From Phycisphaeraceae bacterium (GTDB lineage Bacteria; Planctomycetota; Phycisphaerae; Phycisphaerales; UBA1924): DNA of 64,000 nucleotides. Under the pieces are notes generated by a model. The model saw only the letters and a program-made list of their open reading frames with translations. It ran no database searches and was not told the origin of the DNA. Of the stretch, positions 19,922-33,143 are shown in pieces. Numbering within the stretch: the stretch's first letter is position 1; every line of letters starts with the position of its first letter. The position numbers were made by a program, and so were the translations under genes. The stretch is from contig JAHCJI010000013.1 of the NCBI GenBank assembly GCA_026126305.1, positions 1-64,000 on the forward strand, written 5' to 3'.

Positions 19922-20350
19922 AGCGGCGTCGCCCTCCTGGCCGGCCCCATTCCCCCCCAACGAATCCTCACGAACCCCCACGAACCCACACGATCCCCTC
20001 ACGGGAGCGGTGGCCTCGCTGCGTCGGATGCTCCGCATGGGTGCTTCCATCGGCCCCGGCGGGTGGCAGGCGTGAGATTATAGGAATCAGTCAGCCTCCC
20101 AGCGCGACGCGGCGGCGACTTTGGCACGCCCGCGGCGGTGCCCCGCCGGGGCGGTGGTGGTGGCCAAGGGGCCGCGGGGCCGGGCGTCGGGATTCGGCAT
20201 CCGCCCATCGGCATCCGGCCGTCGGCCATCGGGGAGCCCTCCTTCCCCAACCCCCACGACCCCCACGACCCCCACGACCCCCCCAACCCCCACAACCCCC
20301 ACAACCCCCACAACCCCCACAACCCCCACAACCCCCACAACCCCCACAAC
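19922..20350. other. Upstream region of mreB, mostly low-complexity C-rich DNA
   Basis: No gene is supported. Plus-strand CCCCCACGAA-like runs occur already at 19960-20000. The right quarter is a regular 9-bp tandem array (20251-20349). On the minus strand this is the stretch between the end of the FN3-type gene and the mreB start, so it may be the mreB leader. Confidence 0.5.
20251..20349. repeat. 9-bp tandem array, 11 units (CCCCCACAA / CCCCCACGA)
   Basis: Three CCCCCACGA units, one CCCCCCCAA unit and seven perfect CCCCCACAA units run without interruption. The minus strand reads (TTGTGGGGG)n, five-G tracts every nine bases, fitting the G-quadruplex rule many times over. The array begins one base past the stop codon of the minus-strand gene at 20351-21043 and precedes mreB on the same strand. 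Confidence 0.95.
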
Positions 20351-21056: not shown

Positions 21057-21240
21057 TCGCTTCGCCAGCGGGGCGTGCGCCGCGTGTGTGTTGTCTTCTC
21101 GCTTCGCCAGCGGGGCGTGCGCCGCGTGTGTGTTGTCTTGTCGCTTCGCCAGCGGGGCGTGCGCCGCGTGTGTGTTGTCTTGTCGCTTCGCCAGCGGGGC
21201 CATGCGCCGCGTGCGCGGCGCGTGCTTGTTGTCTTGTCGA
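21057..21240. repeat. 42-bp tandem repeat, about four units
   Basis: Units start at 21057, 21099, 21141 and 21183, each opening TCGCTTCGCCAGCGGGGC and closing near TGTGTTGTCTTG. The last copy has an insertion and a fifth begins at 21237 (TCGATTCGCC). The period is exactly 42 bp, twice the 21-bp period of the neighbouring array. It lies just upstream of the ATG of the gene at 20351-21043. Confidence 0.93.
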
Positions 21241-21470
21241 TTCGCCTTCGGGCACGGGCTCCACCGCCCGGGCCATGCCCCCTCATCGAACCAACCCGGG
21301 CACGACTGGAGCCCGAAACGACCACCAGCACAATTTTTCCTCGCACCGCGCAAACCCTGCGCCACGATCCGCCCCCGCTTGCTCGGCTCATGTTCGGAGA
21401 AACCGCCCCCACGCCCTCGCCAGGCGCCTCCATGGTCCGAAAAGAAGTGCGAAAACTCGCAAAAGAATCC

Positions 21471-21680
21471 ATGGTTTTGACAAAACCATGGATTGTTCTG
21501 GCAGAACCACACATGGTTCTGAGGGAACAACACCTGGTTCTGGCAGGACCTTGGATGGTTTTGGCGAAACCATGCATGGTTCTGGCGGGACCACACGTGG
21601 TCCTGCCGGCATGATGGATGGTTCCGGCGGGACCATCCATCATTCTGGCGGCTCCGGCGATGGTCCGGGTGGCCCGCCCG
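21471..21680. repeat. 21-bp tandem array A, ten units, most with an internal dyad
   Basis: Ten contiguous 21-bp units around the consensus ATGGTTCTGGCGGGACCATGC. Most units contain an inverted repeat of the GGTTYTGGCRRRACC type; several differ by compensatory changes (GGTTTT/AAAACC in unit 1, GGTTT/AAACC in unit 5). The frames read as heptads (for example MVLAGPH), but no start signal or family supports translation. It ends 32 bp before the pentapeptide gene. Confidence 0.92.
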
Positions 21681-21712
21681 GGCCCGGGCAAGCCCCGCTA
21701 CGCTGGACGAGC

Positions 21713-23179
21713 ATGGACACGCCCCCCACGCCCCCCACGCCCCCAGTACCCCCCACGCGCCCCTTCAGCGCCGGCCTGCCCGACGGCCCGCTCGAACGGC
21801 CCAGCGACTATCCCGACTACGACGGCCCGCTGGTGTGCCCCTTCTACGGCCCCGACCATCCAGCACGGCGGGATGAGGAGAGCAAAGAGGCTTTCAACGA
21901 GGCCGTGGCGCGGCTGGCGTTTGGGGATCTCTGGTTGGATTCCATAATCAATGCACAGAATCCGGACGGCAGTCTGGAAGACTTCCGCGGCGACTGGTGG
22001 GCGCTGGCAATGCTGCACGTCGCTCTTTATTGGGCCAAGCTGGACGAGCATAGTGACACCAACCCAGAACGTCTTGAGACATGGTCGTCGCTCGTTGGAT
22101 CGCTATCAATAATCTACGTACCCATCCATCTTGAGAATGCTAACCTTGCCGGAACTAGGCTCCAGTTTTGCAACTTCGAACTGGTCCACATGGAACAGGC
22201 ATGGCTGCATGGCACACATCTCGAGCACGCATATTTTCAGCATGCCCACCTTCGACGAACCCGATTTGGAAAGGCCTATCTTAATCACGCGGATCTGCGA
22301 TACGCAAATATGCAAGGCTCTACCTTGCACAGAGCCAATCTAGAGTATGCAGACCTTCGCAAGGCGCGCCTGAATAGCGCAAGCCTAGTCAGGTCCAATC
22401 TTGCTCATGCGAACCTCCACGACGCAGATCTGGACCATGCCAAAGTTCGGAATGCCCATGGCGTTCGCTTCAACGACACCAAAGTAGAGCGCCTCGATAT
22501 CGAGGGCAACGCCCCTGACCCCTGGTCCACCCTCCGCCGCACCTACACCGGCCCCATGTTCTTCGTCCACCTGCTGCTGCTGGTCGCCTTCGTGCTGCCC
22601 TACGCCGCCAAAGTTCTGACGCTGACGATGACGGCCCGCGGGTACGACGCGCTGCGAGCGTCGCTGGAAGCGGGTGATGGCGCGCCCCCCGGCGGCGAGG
22701 TCGTGCGGGCGTGGCTGGATAACTTTGATGCAACGCATACCCAGACGCACGCGTTGTGGGTCTTGCTCGGCGGCACGCACGCGTGGTGGCCGCTCATGGT
22801 GGGCACCGCGGTGGTCATCCTTCTCTATAACATCCTGCGCGGGCACCTTACGCTGACCGTTGGCGTGCTGCGCGACCAGGCCGACCGCGTGCATCGCACG
22901 CCCACGCTCGAGGAGTATTACGGCGCGTGCCATCCGCTCGCGGGCAAGGACGCGGGTTGGCACCGTGTCACGGCCGTGTGGTGGCGGCGTTGCAAGCAAT
23001 GGCGCAATAGCGAGCGCCGTTGGAAGAACAGGGGCACGCTCAACCCCTTGCCGGTCATCGGCCCTTGGCACTTGCACCGGTTCGCCAGCTGGCTGTTCTG
23101 GATCTCCATCGCCTCGGTCGCTTTACACGCCGGCTGGTGGCTCTGGGACACGACGGTGCCGGTGCCGGTGCCGAGGTAG
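21713..23179 (+). CDS. Pentapeptide-repeat membrane protein
   Basis: A 488-residue protein. A Pro-rich N-terminus (PPTPPTPPVPPTRP) leads to a helical region, then about 25 pentapeptide repeats of the A(D/N)LxxA type (residues ~140-260: ENANLAGTRL, NHADLRYANM, HRANLEYADLRKARL), which form a right-handed beta helix. Three C-terminal membrane segments follow (FFVHLLLLVAFVLPYAAKVL, WPLMVGTAVVILLYNIL, ASWLFWISIASVALHAGWWL). The repeat-coding part (about 22080-22500) is clearly lower in GC than both ends, suggesting a domain of different origin. Function unknown; possibly a cytoplasmic scaffold tethered to the membrane. Confidence 0.82.
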   Translation: MDTPPTPPTPPVPPTRPFSAGLPDGPLERPSDYPDYDGPLVCPFYGPDHPARRDEESKEAFNEAVARLAFGDLWLDSIINAQNPDGSLEDFRGDWWALAMLHVALYWAKLDEHSDTNPERLETWSSLVGSLSIIYVPIHLENANLAGTRLQFCNFELVHMEQAWLHGTHLEHAYFQHAHLRRTRFGKAYLNHADLRYANMQGSTLHRANLEYADLRKARLNSASLVRSNLAHANLHDADLDHAKVRNAHGVRFNDTKVERLDIEGNAPDPWSTLRRTYTGPMFFVHLLLLVAFVLPYAAKVLTLTMTARGYDALRASLEAGDGAPPGGEVVRAWLDNFDATHTQTHALWVLLGGTHAWWPLMVGTAVVILLYNILRGHLTLTVGVLRDQADRVHRTPTLEEYYGACHPLAGKDAGWHRVTAVWWRRCKQWRNSERRWKNRGTLNPLPVIGPWHLHRFASWLFWISIASVALHAGWWLWDTTVPVPVPR

Positions 23180-23847: not shown

Positions 23848-25359
23848 TCAATTGAGGTCGATCACCACCACGCCGCGGCCCTCTTGCGATGGGTGGGCCG
23901 CGCTGACGTGGACCCTCAGGTCTCCCTGGGCCAGGGCCAGGGCCCCGCGTCCATCGGCCAGGACCAGGTGCCGCACGCTGGTGTCGGCCCGCAGCGGGCG
24001 GCCCACGAGGCAGGCGACCAGCTCGGCGTGGTCTCGCAGCCAGCTGGAGGCGACCACCAGGTCTCTGACGGCCGGTGGGGCGCTCTCGCTGTCGTTGGCC
24101 CACGCGATGGCGTGCGGGACGCTCTGGGCATCGACGCCCAGGCCCACCGACCGCGCGTAGGGGCAGGTCACCTCAAGCGGCTGGACACCCTTGGGCATCG
24201 GCCGGTCGGTGTCGGCGGCGATGGGCCCGTTGGCGTCGGCGATGGGCCCTTTGGCGAGCGCTGGGGCGGGTGCCGGGGCCCGGCGCGGCTCGAGCGTTTC
24301 GCCAGCGCCCCCGGCTATGGCCACCGGCTCGGGCTCGGGCGGGCGGGTGGCGACGGGCGGCGCTGGGGCTGGGGCGGGCTCGGCCCGGCGCTCCGCCCGG
24401 CGCTCGGAGGCGCTCGCCCGGGCGGCGGCCAGCAGTTCGGGCACGTCGGCCCACGCCGGTGCGGCGCCGTGGTAGAGCTCCATCGACACGCCCGCGTCGA
24501 TCTGGGCGATGGCCGGCTCGACGCCCACGGGCAGGCCCAGGAATCGCTCGGCCGCGAGTGTGAGCTTGGCCGCCGACTCGCCAGCGCGCGGCTCGGGGCA
24601 GCCGGCGATGGTGACCAGGACCCGCGGGCGATGGGACTGCATGGCACCGCCGGGCAGGTCCTGGATGATGGCCTTGAGGCTCTGGTAAGCCGCCACGATC
24701 GCTGGATCATCGGCGCCGGTGAGGATGGCCAGGTGGCCGGCCCCGCACTGCCCGGCGATCCAGCCGGCCTCGCTCTCGGGCAGGCGGACGATCAGGTCTG
24801 CCCCCAGGTGGGCGACATGGGCCAGGGCCCGGTCGAGGCGGTCGGCCAGCATGGAGCCCGGGCCCACGCCGCCGAAGACCTCCAGCCGCGCCGATTCATC
24901 GCTGAGGCTCAGCAGGCCCAACGGCCGGCCCGAGGCCTTGGCCCGCGACCGCGCGTACTGGCTGGCCCATGCCCCGGCGTACACCGGCAGGTTGCCCAGG
25001 ACCAGCAGCGTCAGCTCCGGGCGGTGGCCGGTGACCAGGGGCTTGGCCTCGGCCTGGCTGGAAGCCTGGCCGCGGGCGTGCGCGGTCTGGGTCTGTCCCG
25101 TTCCATCGTCGGTGCCGGGGCCGACCCCCTGGCCCAGATCTCCCAGGAACAGCGCCGCCAGCGCGTCGGGCACACTCGCGTGGGCGTCAAAGCCCGGGGG
25201 CAGGTCGCCCCGGGCACCGTTGGCAAGGGCGCCGTGGTCGTCCCACGGGGCCCGCGGGCGCGGGGCGTGCGTGCCGTTGGTGGTGGCATCGGGCCCCAAT
25301 GGCTGGGTCGTTGGGAACTCGGGAGTCGTGTGGGGCGTGTGGGGCGTGTGGGGGGCCAT
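23848..25359 (-). CDS. ParA/MinD-like protein lacking the P-loop
   Basis: A 503-residue protein. Residues 1-~110 are Pro/Thr/Gly-rich. Residues ~115-320 follow the MinD/FlhG fold, but Walker A is replaced by VLGNLPVYAGAWASQYA, so ATP binding is unlikely. ILTGADDPAIVAAYQSLKAII mirrors the MinD TTPE-AI-DAY helix, and PRVLVTIAGCPEP-AAERFLGLPVG mirrors the late strand and switch region. A Pro/Ala linker (~330-400) and a ~95-residue unknown C-terminal domain follow. ATG 25359 is chosen for the upstream GGAG. It lies 165 bp downstream of the ParA-CBM gene on the same strand, suggesting active and inactive partners. Confidence 0.6.
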   Translation of the reverse strand: MAPHTPHTPHTTPEFPTTQPLGPDATTNGTHAPRPRAPWDDHGALANGARGDLPPGFDAHASVPDALAALFLGDLGQGVGPGTDDGTGQTQTAHARGQASSQAEAKPLVTGHRPELTLLVLGNLPVYAGAWASQYARSRAKASGRPLGLLSLSDESARLEVFGGVGPGSMLADRLDRALAHVAHLGADLIVRLPESEAGWIAGQCGAGHLAILTGADDPAIVAAYQSLKAIIQDLPGGAMQSHRPRVLVTIAGCPEPRAGESAAKLTLAAERFLGLPVGVEPAIAQIDAGVSMELYHGAAPAWADVPELLAAARASASERRAERRAEPAPAPAPPVATRPPEPEPVAIAGGAGETLEPRRAPAPAPALAKGPIADANGPIAADTDRPMPKGVQPLEVTCPYARSVGLGVDAQSVPHAIAWANDSESAPPAVRDLVVASSWLRDHAELVACLVGRPLRADTSVRHLVLADGRGALALAQGDLRVHVSAAHPSQEGRGVVVIDLN

Positions 25360-25524
25360 GGGGTGCGCTCCGTCGCTTGCTACTTGCCCGGCATCCTCCG
25401 GGTCATGCGGGTCATGGTTCTCGATCCAACGCTTGCGGCACGGGCTCATTCGTTCGATTCGCCGCTGCGGTCGCCGCTCATGGCCCGTCTGAGGCCCCGC
25501 AAGAGGCCCCGCAAGAGGCCCCGC

Positions 25525-27033
25525 CTAAGACGCCAGCGATGCGCCCTGCCCACCGGGCATCGCGGCGGCCGCCGCGGGCAGGGCCTCGGCGATGCTGTTG
25601 GGCTCGCCGAAGGGATTGCTCACCGCCACCGGATTGAACGGGTCGGCGGTCCAGACACCATCGACCACCAACCGGTACGCGTGCCGGCCAGCGGGCAGTT
25701 CGAGCCGAAGGGCATGGACGCCCAAGTTTGGATATCGGCAGAATCGGTGGCTCTGGGCCGACCAATGGTTGAACTCTCCGGCTACGGCGACGCTCGAGCC
25801 CAAGCCGATGGGCTGCACCAGCCACACTCCCCCGCGTACCGGGTGGGCCCCGAAGGCCTCCGACCCGCGCTTGGGCAGCAGCAGACGCTCCAGTTCCATC
25901 GCCCCCGGGGCCGATGGCTGCGTGGATGTGGTTGGGGGTGTTGGCGTGAAGGCCGTCGGCGGCAAATCGGCCTGAGGACCTCGAGCCGAGGTCGCCAGCG
26001 GTGCCGGTGGCGTGTCCAGCTCCATCGCCCGGCGGGCACGCTCGGCCACCTGTGCGACGGACTGCTCGCGGCTTGGCACGGCGGCATCCCAAGGATTCGC
26101 TGGGCCCAACGGCGAGCTGCCGGGCAAGGCGGCTGGTGGGGCCGTGCATTGGGCAGTGGGCATGGGTTCTGTCAAGGAGGGTGCTGGGCTGCCAGCGGCT
26201 CGCACGCCTCCTGGAAGCGACGACATACCCGTTGTGGCGGCACCACCGGCCCCTTGCAAGGCCTCGGACTCGGCCAGCAACCACTGGGCGAGTTCGGCAT
26301 AGTCGCGGGCGGCCTGGGACTGCGGCGCGTACTCGCCCACAGGCCGGCCGAAGGTGGCCGCTTCCTTGACCTTGTCGTCCTTGTGGATCACCGTCTGGCA
26401 GACCTGCGAGCCAAACCTCGTCCGCAACTGGTCGAGCAGCTCACACGGCAGGGCGGCATCGGGCTCGTGGATGGTCGGCACGATCCAATGCCTGGCGCGA
26501 CGGCCCAGTCGTTGGCCCAGGCTGGCCAGCGTGGCCACCTGCCTGGCCGCCCCTTGCTGGGCAAAGTAACTCATCTCCACCGGGATGAGCACCTCGTCGG
26601 CCGCACACAGCGCGTTGTAGGTCAACAGCCCGATCGAGGGCGAGCAATCGATGATCGCCAGGTCGTATCCTGAGAGCGCCCGCAAGACCTTGGCCAGCCT
26701 CTGGTCCTTGTCCTCGAGCGTGGCCAGGCCACCTCGGCTGGCTTCCAGGCCCGCCAGTTTCATGCGGCTGGGCAGCAGGTCCAGATTCCGACCGATCCGC
26801 CAGATGAGCTTGTTCAGATCGAGTTTCGACGGGTCGCTGGCGAGCATCGCGTCGCCCACGTCTTGTTCGATATGGCCTTCGGGAATCGCCAGGCCTGCGG
26901 CACAATGTGACTGCGGGTCCATGTCGACCAGCAGGACTCGCTGGCCCAGAGTGGCAAGTGCCCCAGAGAGGCTGATCGCCGTGGTCGTCTTGCCACAGCC
27001 GCCCTTCTGATTGACGATGGCGATCGTGCGCAT
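25525..27033 (-). CDS. ParA-family ATPase fused to a CBM48/glycogen-binding-like domain
   Basis: A 502-residue protein. Residues 1-~255 are a ParA/Soj ATPase: deviant Walker A KGGCGKTT (10-17), LLVDMDPQSH, Walker B-like YDLAIIDCSPSIGLLTYNAL, and VLIPVEMSYFAQQGA. A ~140-residue Pro/Ala/Ser linker follows. Residues ~402-481 resemble an AMPK-beta/isoamylase-N (CBM48, E-set) domain: VAVAGEFNHWS, then LRLELPAGRHAYRLVVDGVWTADPFNP and a closing FGEPNSI. No ParB or parS is near, so a chromosome-partition role is doubtful; positioning of a carbohydrate body or enzyme is one option. ATG 27033 chosen; TTG 27042 also possible. Confidence 0.85.
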   Translation of the reverse strand: MRTIAIVNQKGGCGKTTTAISLSGALATLGQRVLLVDMDPQSHCAAGLAIPEGHIEQDVGDAMLASDPSKLDLNKLIWRIGRNLDLLPSRMKLAGLEASRGGLATLEDKDQRLAKVLRALSGYDLAIIDCSPSIGLLTYNALCAADEVLIPVEMSYFAQQGAARQVATLASLGQRLGRRARHWIVPTIHEPDAALPCELLDQLRTRFGSQVCQTVIHKDDKVKEAATFGRPVGEYAPQSQAARDYAELAQWLLAESEALQGAGGAATTGMSSLPGGVRAAGSPAPSLTEPMPTAQCTAPPAALPGSSPLGPANPWDAAVPSREQSVAQVAERARRAMELDTPPAPLATSARGPQADLPPTAFTPTPPTTSTQPSAPGAMELERLLLPKRGSEAFGAHPVRGGVWLVQPIGLGSSVAVAGEFNHWSAQSHRFCRYPNLGVHALRLELPAGRHAYRLVVDGVWTADPFNPVAVSNPFGEPNSIAEALPAAAAAMPGGQGASLAS

Positions 27034-27217: not shown

Positions 27218-28384
27218 CTACCGGCCTCGGACGTGCCGCCATGCGCCCGCCAACGCCGAATCTCCGGGATCATCCAGCATCGAGACCCCTTCCCGCGTGG
27301 GCACGACAAGCCGCAAGACCCCGCCGCTGGACTTCTTGTCCTGTCGCATGGCCGACATCAGGTCGCCAATATCAGGCACCTCGACCAGGTGGACGGGCAG
27401 GCCCGCTCGAGCCACCACCGCCTGGATCTTGTCGGCCAGCCCAGGCGGTGTGAGTCCGACGGCTTCGCCCAGCCGAGCCGAGGCGATCAGGCCAATCCCC
27501 ACGGCCTCACCATGTGAGGGGTGTACGAGACGGCCTTCGATTTCAACACGCACCCCTTCGCACCCCTCAATCGCATGGGCGAAGGTGTGGCCCAGATTCA
27601 GAGCCCGCCGGCCCGGGGCCGCACCTTGGGCCAATTCCTGTTCGTCGCCGGCCACCACCGCCGCCTTGAGTCCGATGTTTTCGCGGACCAGTGACACCAA
27701 GCGTTCGGCGTCGGTGGTTGGACCCATCGGTAAGCAAGAGGAGAGGGCATCAAGGTCGAGCATCCCCCCCGTTTCGGTACCCGCGATCACCGCGTGCTTG
27801 ATGCACTCGGCCAAGCCGCACCGAAATGCTCTATCTGGAAGTGACACCAAGGTCTCGACATCGGCCACGACCAGACTTGGCTGGTGGAACATCCCGACGG
27901 CGTTCTTGAGCAGGACCCGCGTCGGATCAGCCAAGACCGCCAGATTGACCCCTGTCTTGCCACCCACCGATGCATCGACCATCGAAAGCAGGGTCGTTGG
28001 GCACTGGACCACCCCTACACCCCGCCGATGCAGGCCGGCGGCCAAACCCGCGACATCCCCCAAAATGCCCCCGCCAACGACCACGGCCAGATCGCCTCGC
28101 TCAAGCCCGGCTGAAGCAAGGTCTTGCAACATCCGCTCGAGCGATGCCATGGACTTGGTCGCTTCATCCAGGCCGTACTCGGTACGTGTGAGGCGGGCAT
28201 CGATGGAACTCGCGGCCACGTCTCGCAGGGCCTTCGGCACACCGACATCCTCGAACAGGTGGATGCGCCGGAACTGGCCAAGCCTTGTGAGCAGCCCCCC
28301 CAGGCCAGTCAACAGGCCTCGGCCGACGAGCACGTCATGGCCGCCATTGGCCAGCGCGACTCGCACGCGGGCCGGCCCGATCAT
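27218..28384 (-). CDS. aroB: 3-dehydroquinate synthase
   Basis: A 388-residue NAD- and metal-dependent enzyme converting DAHP to 3-dehydroquinate, step two of the shikimate pathway. Motifs: the NAD-binding region VVGGGILGDVAGLAAGLHRRG; the substrate block PTTLLSMVDASVGGKTGVN; GLAECIKHAVI; and metal-binding NLGHTFAHAIE and PSHGEAVGIG. The start codon overlaps the stop of rsfS by four bases (ATGA, 28381-28384), so the two are co-translated. Confidence 0.96.
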   Translation of the reverse strand: MIGPARVRVALANGGHDVLVGRGLLTGLGGLLTRLGQFRRIHLFEDVGVPKALRDVAASSIDARLTRTEYGLDEATKSMASLERMLQDLASAGLERGDLAVVVGGGILGDVAGLAAGLHRRGVGVVQCPTTLLSMVDASVGGKTGVNLAVLADPTRVLLKNAVGMFHQPSLVVADVETLVSLPDRAFRCGLAECIKHAVIAGTETGGMLDLDALSSCLPMGPTTDAERLVSLVRENIGLKAAVVAGDEQELAQGAAPGRRALNLGHTFAHAIEGCEGVRVEIEGRLVHPSHGEAVGIGLIASARLGEAVGLTPPGLADKIQAVVARAGLPVHLVEVPDIGDLMSAMRQDKKSSGGVLRLVVPTREGVSMLDDPGDSALAGAWRHVRGR

Positions 28385-28872
28385 TGCGGAAACTTCTCGT
28401 CGGGGCGCAAACCGGCCCGGTTTCGATCGACCTGATCGGGCCTGGCCCAGGCTACGTCTTTTGCGTCGGGAAACAGGCTCTCCACGTCGTAGTGGGCCCG
28501 CGTGTTTGGCTCAAACAGGTGCAGGACCACGTCCACGAAGTCGGCCAGGAGCCAGGTGCTGTTCTCGTCGCGGGCCTGCCGGACGGCGGGCATGCCCGAC
28601 TCGGTCGCCAGTTCCATCGCATGGTCGAGCACCGAGTTCATCTGCCGATCGCTGGTGCCCGACGCGATGATGATGTAGTCGGTCACGGGGCTGAGGCCGG
28701 CCACGTCGAGGACATGGATCCGCTCACACTTGTCATCGGCCAGCATCCGGGCCAGATCGATAGCCATGGCGCGGGCCTGTTGGTTGTTCGCCCGCCTCGT
28801 GAGAGACTGCGTGTCGAGCTTGATGGGCCCGTCCTGGGCGTCGGAGTGTGGCATGGGCTTGGGTGGATCCAT
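28381..28872 (-). CDS. rsfS: Ribosome silencing factor RsfS
   Basis: A 163-residue protein that binds ribosomal protein L14 and blocks subunit joining in slow growth. Core motifs: ERIHVLDVAGLSPVTDYIIIASGTSDRQ, then STWLLADFVDVVLHLFEPNTRAHYDVESLFPDA, the conserved family ending. About 30 N-terminal residues precede the fold, so a later start is possible (Met7). First gene of the rsfS-aroB pair. Confidence 0.94.
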   Translation of the reverse strand: MDPPKPMPHSDAQDGPIKLDTQSLTRRANNQQARAMAIDLARMLADDKCERIHVLDVAGLSPVTDYIIIASGTSDRQMNSVLDHAMELATESGMPAVRQARDENSTWLLADFVDVVLHLFEPNTRAHYDVESLFPDAKDVAWARPDQVDRNRAGLRPDEKFPQ

Positions 28873-31964: not shown

Positions 31965-33143
31965 TTACCCGCCTGTATCCGGGTCGGGGTTGGGTCGATT
32001 GCTCGGCCCAGCGGGAGGCTCTGGCTCCTCGGGCATGTCCGGGCGGATCAATCTGGCCGGGCGGCCCCGCGCGAAGGCTTCGCCCAGGCGTGTCCGCAAC
32101 AACGTCGCCCGAGCCTCGCGGCGCTGGTCTTGGGTCAGTTCCTGCCCGATGGCGGCCTGGATATGCGCGGGTTGGACGGCCACGAGCATGTGATTGACCA
32201 GGGACAGCGACAGGTTGGGCACCAGGTCCAAGGCGATGCCAAGCCGAAGCCGGCTCAGCAGATTCGTCGCCTCTTCGGTGCTCAGCAGCCTCGCGTGCAG
32301 CAGCACCCCGACGGCTCTCCAGACCTGATCCTCCAAGCCGCGGCGTCCACCGCGGACCAGGCGCTCTCGTGCCGATCGCTCGTACTGGATCACCTGTGGG
32401 ATGATCTCGTGTTCCATCTCTCGGAGCAGGACGACTTCGCTCTTTCCGATGGTGGTCTGATTGCTGATCTGGTAGAAATCGCCCGTGGCCTCGCTGCCTT
32501 CGCCGTACGACCCTCGCACGGTCAGGCCCAGATCGTCGGCGGCCCGTTTGACTTTCTCGATCTCACGAGTGATCTTCAGCGCGGGCAGGTGCAGCATGAC
32601 GCTCAGCCGCACACCGGTGCCCACGTTCGTCGGACAGGCGGTCAGGTAGCCGAACCGGGGGCTATAGGCGTAGTCGATGCGGGACTCGATGGCATCATCG
32701 GCACGGTCGGCCTCGGCCATCGCGCCCGACAAGTCAAAACCACCGCGGATCACCTGGAGCCGCAAGTGGTCCTCCTCGTTGACCATGATCGACAAACGTC
32801 GATCGGGCAGCCCGATGGCCACCGCCCGAGCGTGCATGGGCTCTCCCGGCTTGCCCGAGGCGTGTTGCCGGCTGATCAAGCGCTCTTCGACCAGCAGCGA
32901 CCGGTGGCCCGAGGTCGTCGAACTGAGGTCGACCCATTCCAACTGATGGCACAGCCGGGACCCCAGCACCACGGGCTTGAGTCTGGCCAGGATCGCGCTG
33001 CGCTCGCTCGCCGGGGCGCGATTGGGAAACCGGAACCCCGCCAGGTTCCTTGCAAAGCGAACCCGGCTGGACACAACCACGTCACCCGATCGACCGGTGT
33101 CGGCAAGCCAGCCACCCGAACCACCCCGGCCCATCGGGTTCAT
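31965..33143 (-). CDS. mcsB: Protein-arginine kinase McsB
   Basis: A 392-residue guanidino-kinase-fold enzyme that phosphorylates arginine side chains on proteins, marking them for ClpCP degradation in Firmicutes. Motifs: VVSSRVRFARNLAGFRFP, the substrate loop IMVNEEDHLRLQVIRGG, the catalytic CPTNVGTGVRLSVMLHLP with the essential Cys, and GSYGEGSEATGDFYQISNQTTIGKSE. The C-terminal ~40 residues are Pro-rich and extra. It overlaps mcsA by four bases (33140-33143). No ctsR or clpC is adjacent. Confidence 0.94.
   Translation of the reverse strand: MNPMGRGGSGGWLADTGRSGDVVVSSRVRFARNLAGFRFPNRAPASERSAILARLKPVVLGSRLCHQLEWVDLSSTTSGHRSLLVEERLISRQHASGKPGEPMHARAVAIGLPDRRLSIMVNEEDHLRLQVIRGGFDLSGAMAEADRADDAIESRIDYAYSPRFGYLTACPTNVGTGVRLSVMLHLPALKITREIEKVKRAADDLGLTVRGSYGEGSEATGDFYQISNQTTIGKSEVVLLREMEHEIIPQVIQYERSARERLVRGGRRGLEDQVWRAVGVLLHARLLSTEEATNLLSRLRLGIALDLVPNLSLSLVNHMLVAVQPAHIQAAIGQELTQDQRREARATLLRTRLGEAFARGRPARLIRPDMPEEPEPPAGPSNRPNPDPDTGG

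Follow-up and report, generated by a model that had tools for sequence, protein, structure and literature searches.

A Conserved ParA-Type ATPase with a C-Terminal AMPK-β-Type Carbohydrate-Binding Module in Phycisphaerae

Introduction

ParA ATPases place chromosomes, plasmids, carboxysomes, and chemosensory arrays, and the positioning ParAs that are known reach their cargo through a separate adaptor or ATPase activator. ParA/MinD ATPases position many non-DNA cargos; in carboxysome positioning, a separate protein, McdB, is bound to the cargo (PMC10241942). The protein described here differs from these cargo-positioning systems in that a cargo-type binding module, a carbohydrate-binding module (CBM), is fused to the ATPase itself. 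It is encoded in a 64,000-nucleotide stretch of a Phycisphaeraceae bacterium genome (contig JAHCJI010000013.1), hereafter the window. The original prediction knew of no described ParA-CBM48 system. Likewise, the open-licence papers that we searched contained no description of the architecture and, as far as they show, of any ParA with its own carbohydrate-binding module. The ParA-CBM domain architecture is real and conserved and, within the limits of our searches, not described before among ParA/MinD ATPases; its function is what we infer below.

Results and Discussion

Architecture of the ParA-CBM Protein

The open reading frame at 25525–27033 proved real, with the gene on the minus strand; the plus strand over the same interval carries in-frame stops. 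All motifs quoted earlier (KGGCGKTT, DMDPQSH, IIDCSPSIG, VAGEFNHWS, and LPAGRHAYRLVVDGVWTADPFNP) were found in the protein, which is organized as follows.

25525–27033, minus strand: parA-CBM gene (P0001), 502 aa, ATG start at 27033, stop at 25525–25527, orthologues known.
26260–27033, minus strand: ParA/Soj ATPase domain, residues 1–258, with the deviant Walker A KGGCGKTT, signature Lys10, D37/D39, and Walker B D129.
25855–26259, minus strand: linker, residues 259–393, disordered over most of its length, a short helix being predicted at 327–339.
25579–25854, minus strand: AMPK-β-type CBM (PF16561/CBM48), residues 394–485, from a profile match and an AlphaFold model.

In the AlphaFold model (74 orthologues), the ParA domain and the CBM are both of high confidence and are separated by a disordered linker, which ranges from 77 to 272 residues across relatives (median about 118). 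The Pfam families AAA_31 and AMPK1_CBM were each matched by 74 of 74 aligned relatives, ruling out chance or an assembly artefact as the source of the fusion.

The first half had been read as an intact ParA/Soj ATPase, and every nucleotide-site motif is indeed present. AAA_31 matched residues 1–174 with E=1.4e-41, and N8-Q9-K10-G11-G12, G14-K15-T16-T17, D37, D39, and D129 are invariant in the 74 aligned members. The best Soj structural match to the model had Z 35.5 over 249 aligned residues at an rmsd of 1.8 Å, and the solved Thermus-type Soj/ParA structures gave 36–40% identity and Z 33.5–35.5. Over the whole domain, the fusion protein shares the fold of Soj/ParA proteins (Thermus Soj 1WCV/2BEK, H. 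pylori Soj 8JMJ, and ParA 8RAY) at 31–40% identity, together with the deviant Walker A with its signature lysine and Walker A' and B. It differs from them in lacking a linked parB, in keeping the DNA-binding arginine positions only partly, and in its long linker and C-terminal CBM. McdA (match at Z 28.7), PpfA/ParC, PomZ, and MipZ belong to the same ATPase superfamily, and a likeness to them in positioning non-DNA cargo is proposed for the fusion. Membership in BcsQ, the ParA-like protein of cellulose synthesis, was rejected, as TIGR03371 scored 102 bits against the NCBIfam equivalog cut-off of 157.85.

Among the basic residues of Caulobacter ParA, the most widely shared are R195 and R224 (PMC7229837). 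By our own mapping from alignments, R195 falls in the DxR loop, where the window protein has D192 and 41% of the family has K/R. The R224 equivalent is K221 in the window protein and K/R in 69% of the family, and K/R223 is invariant in the fusion family. Nucleoid binding by ParA-CBM is plausible from this alignment, with the DNA-binding basic residues mixed.

Other ParA and ParB Proteins of the Genome

Linkage to parB is not strictly required of a chromosomal ParA. The window genome has a second ParA, on contig 7, and one clear ParB, on contig 1, with an RRLGRGL N-terminus; this ParB gene is linked to neither ParA. No parB was found among the conserved neighbours of the fusion gene, a lack that the original prediction had taken as evidence for cargo other than DNA. 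That argument did not hold, since the ordinary ParA of contig 7 also has no adjacent parB. The missing parB thus says little about the cargo.

ParA-CBM might then be a chromosomal ParA working with ParB in segregation, with the CBM as a modulator or an ornament. Among proteins of solved structure, the chromosomal Soj proteins are nearest to it, and because the canonical ParB is unlinked to either ParA, linkage does not reveal which of them it serves. However, none of the 61 related genomes has fewer than two ParA matches, and where the fusion protein reads IHKDDKVKEAAT, the ParA of contig 7 retains the canonical Soj motif IRRNIKLAEAPS. We regard the segregation role as improbable.

The C-Terminal Glycogen-Binding-Type Module

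The tail had been assigned to the AMPK-β/isoamylase-N type, and the profiles confirmed a CBM specifically of the AMPK-β type, the kind with which human AMPK holds glycogen. Pfam PF16561 (AMPK1_CBM) matched with E=7.7e-9 and 36.1 bits, above the curated cut-off of 26.8. When the tail alone was searched against the PDB with phmmer, rat AMPK β-1 was the best match (E=5.6e-9). AlphaFold gave a confident β-rich domain at 390–490, with a CBM pLDDT of 93–97 and a CBM-like fold. The assignment rests on these profiles and on model confidence, the list from the full-model structural search having been filled by ParA matches.

In AMPK β-1, residues W100, K126, W133, L146, and T148 contact sugar, and their mutation cuts glycogen binding (PMC2642990). 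With AMPK numbering counted by us from chain residue 68 in the tail alignment, W424, R454, W461, F475, and N479 of the window protein align with W100, K126, W133, L146, and N150. The T148 position, which is not a Pfam-family-defining residue, is E477 in the window protein and mostly E, D, or G across the family. In this alignment, four of the five mutationally tested glycogen-contact positions are retained or conservatively changed, and T148 is not. Relative to the AMPK β glycogen-binding domain (PF16561; 1Z0N, 4YEF), which is the best PDB match of the tail, the module differs in its acidic T148 position and in sitting on a ParA ATPase instead of a kinase scaffold subunit.

Conservation of these residues was counted among 91 non-redundant relatives, of which 90 keep W424, 88 keep W461, 88 have R/K454, 78 have F/Y475, and 80 have N479. 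Both binding-type tryptophans are retained in about 97% of the members, with domain identity down to 33%. We consider it likely, on these retained contacts, that the CBM binds intracellular α-glucan. Two sister fusion proteins, L107 (L107:1876–3165) and L109 (L109:6001–7281), carry a CBM without W461, R454, and N479 and retain the ParA part; as read from their residues, they are natural binding-site mutants. AMPK-type CBMs also occur on their own, in small ORFs of about 100–150 aa that are widespread in Planctomycetota (G350, G372, and others).

Distribution and History of the Fusion

The domain pair is kept across the class, which the original prediction had named as support for it: of 61 related genomes, at least 50 had ParA and CBM aligned at a single locus, and the fusion is present through most of Phycisphaerae. 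Beyond the class, the pair was also seen in a single genome (G116, locus L120). Shorter ParA orthologues, in ORFs of 334–388 aa without a detected CBM there, occur in several genomes (e.g., G022, G029, G042, G048, and G054), so the tail was probably lost more than once. The ParA orthologue L031 (L031:1498–2487) has lost the CBM completely, with no remnant in six frames.

We scanned 84,980 species genomes with query peptides, a method insensitive to distant relatives. The best 80 loci were all labelled Planctomycetota except for one record, Leptolyngbya sp. PLA1, which is probably a mislabelled draft genome. Given the insensitivity of the scan, confinement of the fusion to Planctomycetota is not proven.

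In an unrooted maximum-likelihood tree of 55 ParA domains, in which L119 and L120 form long branches, the presence or absence of the CBM requires two changes. The first separates the CBM-bearing proteins from ordinary ParAs (branch 100/98), with the 22 other CBM-less ParAs on one side, and the second is a single loss at L031. This tree is most simply read as one ancient fusion event followed by vertical inheritance, ancestral to most of Phycisphaerae.

Gene Neighborhood and an FlhG/FleN-like Neighbour

The gene order rsfS-aroB-parA-CBM-partner is conserved in Phycisphaerales, the partner being an FlhG/FleN-like protein. In the window, the genes and partner domains are placed as follows.

28381–28872, minus strand: rsfS (ribosome silencing factor), upstream of aroB, present in 24 loci.
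27218–28384, minus strand: aroB (3-dehydroquinate synthase), the upstream neighbour, in 45 of 91 non-redundant loci, many of them short.
23848–25449, minus strand: partner gene, 533 aa, conserved and downstream, with no Pfam match; the true start may lie further downstream.
25144–25173, minus strand: conserved N-terminal helix of the partner, DALAALFLG (DALADLFLG in the family consensus), with disorder in the rest of the region.
24424–25026, minus strand: FlhG/FleN-like SIMIBI domain of the partner, residues 142–342, without a Walker A lysine motif.
23851–24162, minus strand: C-terminal α/β domain of the partner, residues 430–533, from the model.

In about 80 loci, the gene directly downstream of the fusion, in the same orientation, is the partner. 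In 15 loci, clpX lies about 3 kb downstream, and the flanks available for other loci did not show the mreB that the window carries. Upstream of mreB, positions 20087–20350 hold a short-period repeat that reads GVVGVVGVV or NPHNPHDPH depending on the frame. Elsewhere in the window are an ORF with pentapeptide repeats (21086–23179, plus strand), whose repetitive low-complexity N-terminal part may be non-coding, and an ATP:guanido phosphotransferase (31965–33143, minus strand), a McsB-like protein arginine kinase with E=1.9e-58.

Pfam and NCBIfam searches gave no family for the partner. The top structural match to its model was FlhG (Z 12.1 over 158 residues, rmsd 3.2), and the profile match to FleN was weak (E=0.0015). 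Its P-loop region reads GNLPVYAGAWASQYA, with the family consensus GHLPVxASAWVxQYA, and the Walker A for ATP binding is absent. It thus differs from FlhG/FleN, the MinD-like flagellar regulators, in having no Walker A lysine motif, a long disordered N-terminus with one conserved helix, and an extra C-terminal domain, for which profile and structural searches found no relative. Homology of the partner to ParA was considered and discarded, as a clean partner profile shows no similarity to the fusion protein.

The sister fusions with a degraded CBM site, L107 and L109, still have the partner. It also adjoins the L031 ParA that lost its CBM, and therefore follows the ATPase and not the CBM. In distant members of the Sedimentisphaerales type, the partner is generally not adjacent and no other conserved neighbour was seen; L084, with a weak partner homologue, is the exception. 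A linked partner is therefore probably not essential for the fusion protein to act. McdAB-type systems pair a ParA-type ATPase with a cargo-bound protein that stimulates it; the conserved neighbour of the fusion in Phycisphaerales is FlhG-like and is unlinked in most distant members. The FlhG/FleN-like neighbour is a candidate partner of ParA-CBM, for the part that McdB plays, in the order Phycisphaerales only.

Glycogen Metabolism in the Genome and Its Relatives

On contig 21 (L176:3154–13889), the window genome has a glycogen gene cluster encoding a GT3 glycogen synthase (PF05693, E=2.4e-168), an α-glucan phosphorylase, GlgB, GH77, and a GH57/DUF3536 protein. The GT3 type of glycogen synthase is best known from eukaryotes, and a control search matched it in only one of 14 reference genomes. 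Among the 61 relatives, GT3 was found in 37, phosphorylase in 47, and GH57 in 54. No glycogen genes were seen near the fusion locus in any lineage looked at.

Two draft genomes, G036 (93% complete) and G014 (88%), gave no match to GT3, GT5, GlgB, GH13, GH57, or phosphorylase. Their fusions keep both tryptophans, with N479 replaced by T and I, respectively, which weakens a strict reading of glycogen as the cargo. Conversely, the L109 genome has GH13 and GH57, yet its CBM lacks W461 and N479. We considered whether changes in the CBM site track the absence of α-glucan genes: N479 is altered in six of 28, and these six include G036 and G014. The comparison is suggestive, post hoc, and of small sample, and the L109 genome contradicts it. 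These genomes do not show a tight dependence of the fusion on glycogen metabolism.

Such cases lend some weight to a CBM that serves as a protein dock. Some CBM48 domains are E-sets without known sugar binding, and the domain of ParA-CBM could likewise no longer bind sugar in vivo and instead recruit a protein cargo or the FlhG-like partner. The two sister sequences that lost W461, R454, and N479 keep both ParA and the partner, and G036 and G014 keep the domain. Nevertheless, both tryptophans persist in nearly all members despite the divergence of the domain, and persistence of the partner at the CBM-less L031 indicates that it does not depend on the CBM. We judge docking of a protein rather unlikely.

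A Proposed Positioning Switch or Glucan Sensor

Our preferred reading, held tentatively, is that ParA-CBM is a positioning ATP switch whose tail grips α-glucan, the placing or sharing out of glycogen being the likeliest purpose. The protein would be a chromosomally encoded ParA/MinD-family ATPase switch, distinct from the ordinary ParA, bearing an α-glucan module on a long flexible linker. The CBM would grip intracellular α-glucan, and ATP-dependent dimerisation and nucleoid binding would let the protein spread this cargo, most likely glycogen granules or enzymes bound to glycogen, over the length of the nucleoid or share it out to the daughter cells. In Phycisphaerales, the FlhG/FleN-like neighbour may act as an adaptor or ATPase regulator.

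This mechanism is supported by the intact ATPase motifs, the retained CBM contacts, the ancestral fusion, the extra ParA in every genome, the glycogen cluster of the same genome, the adjacent same-strand partner, and the known non-DNA cargos of ParA/MinD proteins. Against it stand the absence of glycogen genes near the locus, the glutamate at the T148 position, and the mixed DNA-binding basic residues. The CBM kept in G036 and G014 without glucan genes, the degraded L109 site despite GH13 and GH57, the placement of the cargo binder on the ATPase itself, and the unlinked partner of most distant members also count against it. In its fullest form, the proposal is of an undescribed class-wide system whose ParA, with its own glucan-binding module, both positions and segregates granules of glycogen on the nucleoid, joined in Phycisphaerales by an FlhG-like pseudo-ATPase partner; this form is unlikely.

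The main rival is a glucan sensor, in which the CBM reads glycogen amount or branching and alters the ParA switch, and through it segregation or division-site choice, without moving granules. The AMPK CBM is itself a regulatory glycogen sensor (PMC2642990). Sensing explains better than positioning why the gene sits among housekeeping genes (aroB, rsfS, and clpX) and not glycogen genes, and a glucan binder on the ATPase itself fits regulation better than a classical ratchet. Phycisphaerales divide by binary fission and have no FtsZ (PMC5147048), so other positioning cues are needed. On the other hand, the long and variable linker makes rigid coupling less obvious, the allostery that it presumes is hypothetical, and the CBM is kept in the two genomes without detected glycogen genes. 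Sensing by this protein appears somewhat unlikely.

Conclusions

Should the CBM bind glycogen, ParA-CBM would be a dedicated bacterial system for glycogen placement and inheritance or, alternatively, a sensor of reserves like AMPK, coupled to the machinery of cell organisation. Positioning with a pseudo-ATPase partner, if true, would make it the first machine known to be dedicated to positioning a carbohydrate store in bacteria. The lineage in which the protein occurs divides without FtsZ. That ParA with a CBM has been passed on within most of the class suggests that carbon reserves and the internal organisation of the cell are linked in a way not yet described.
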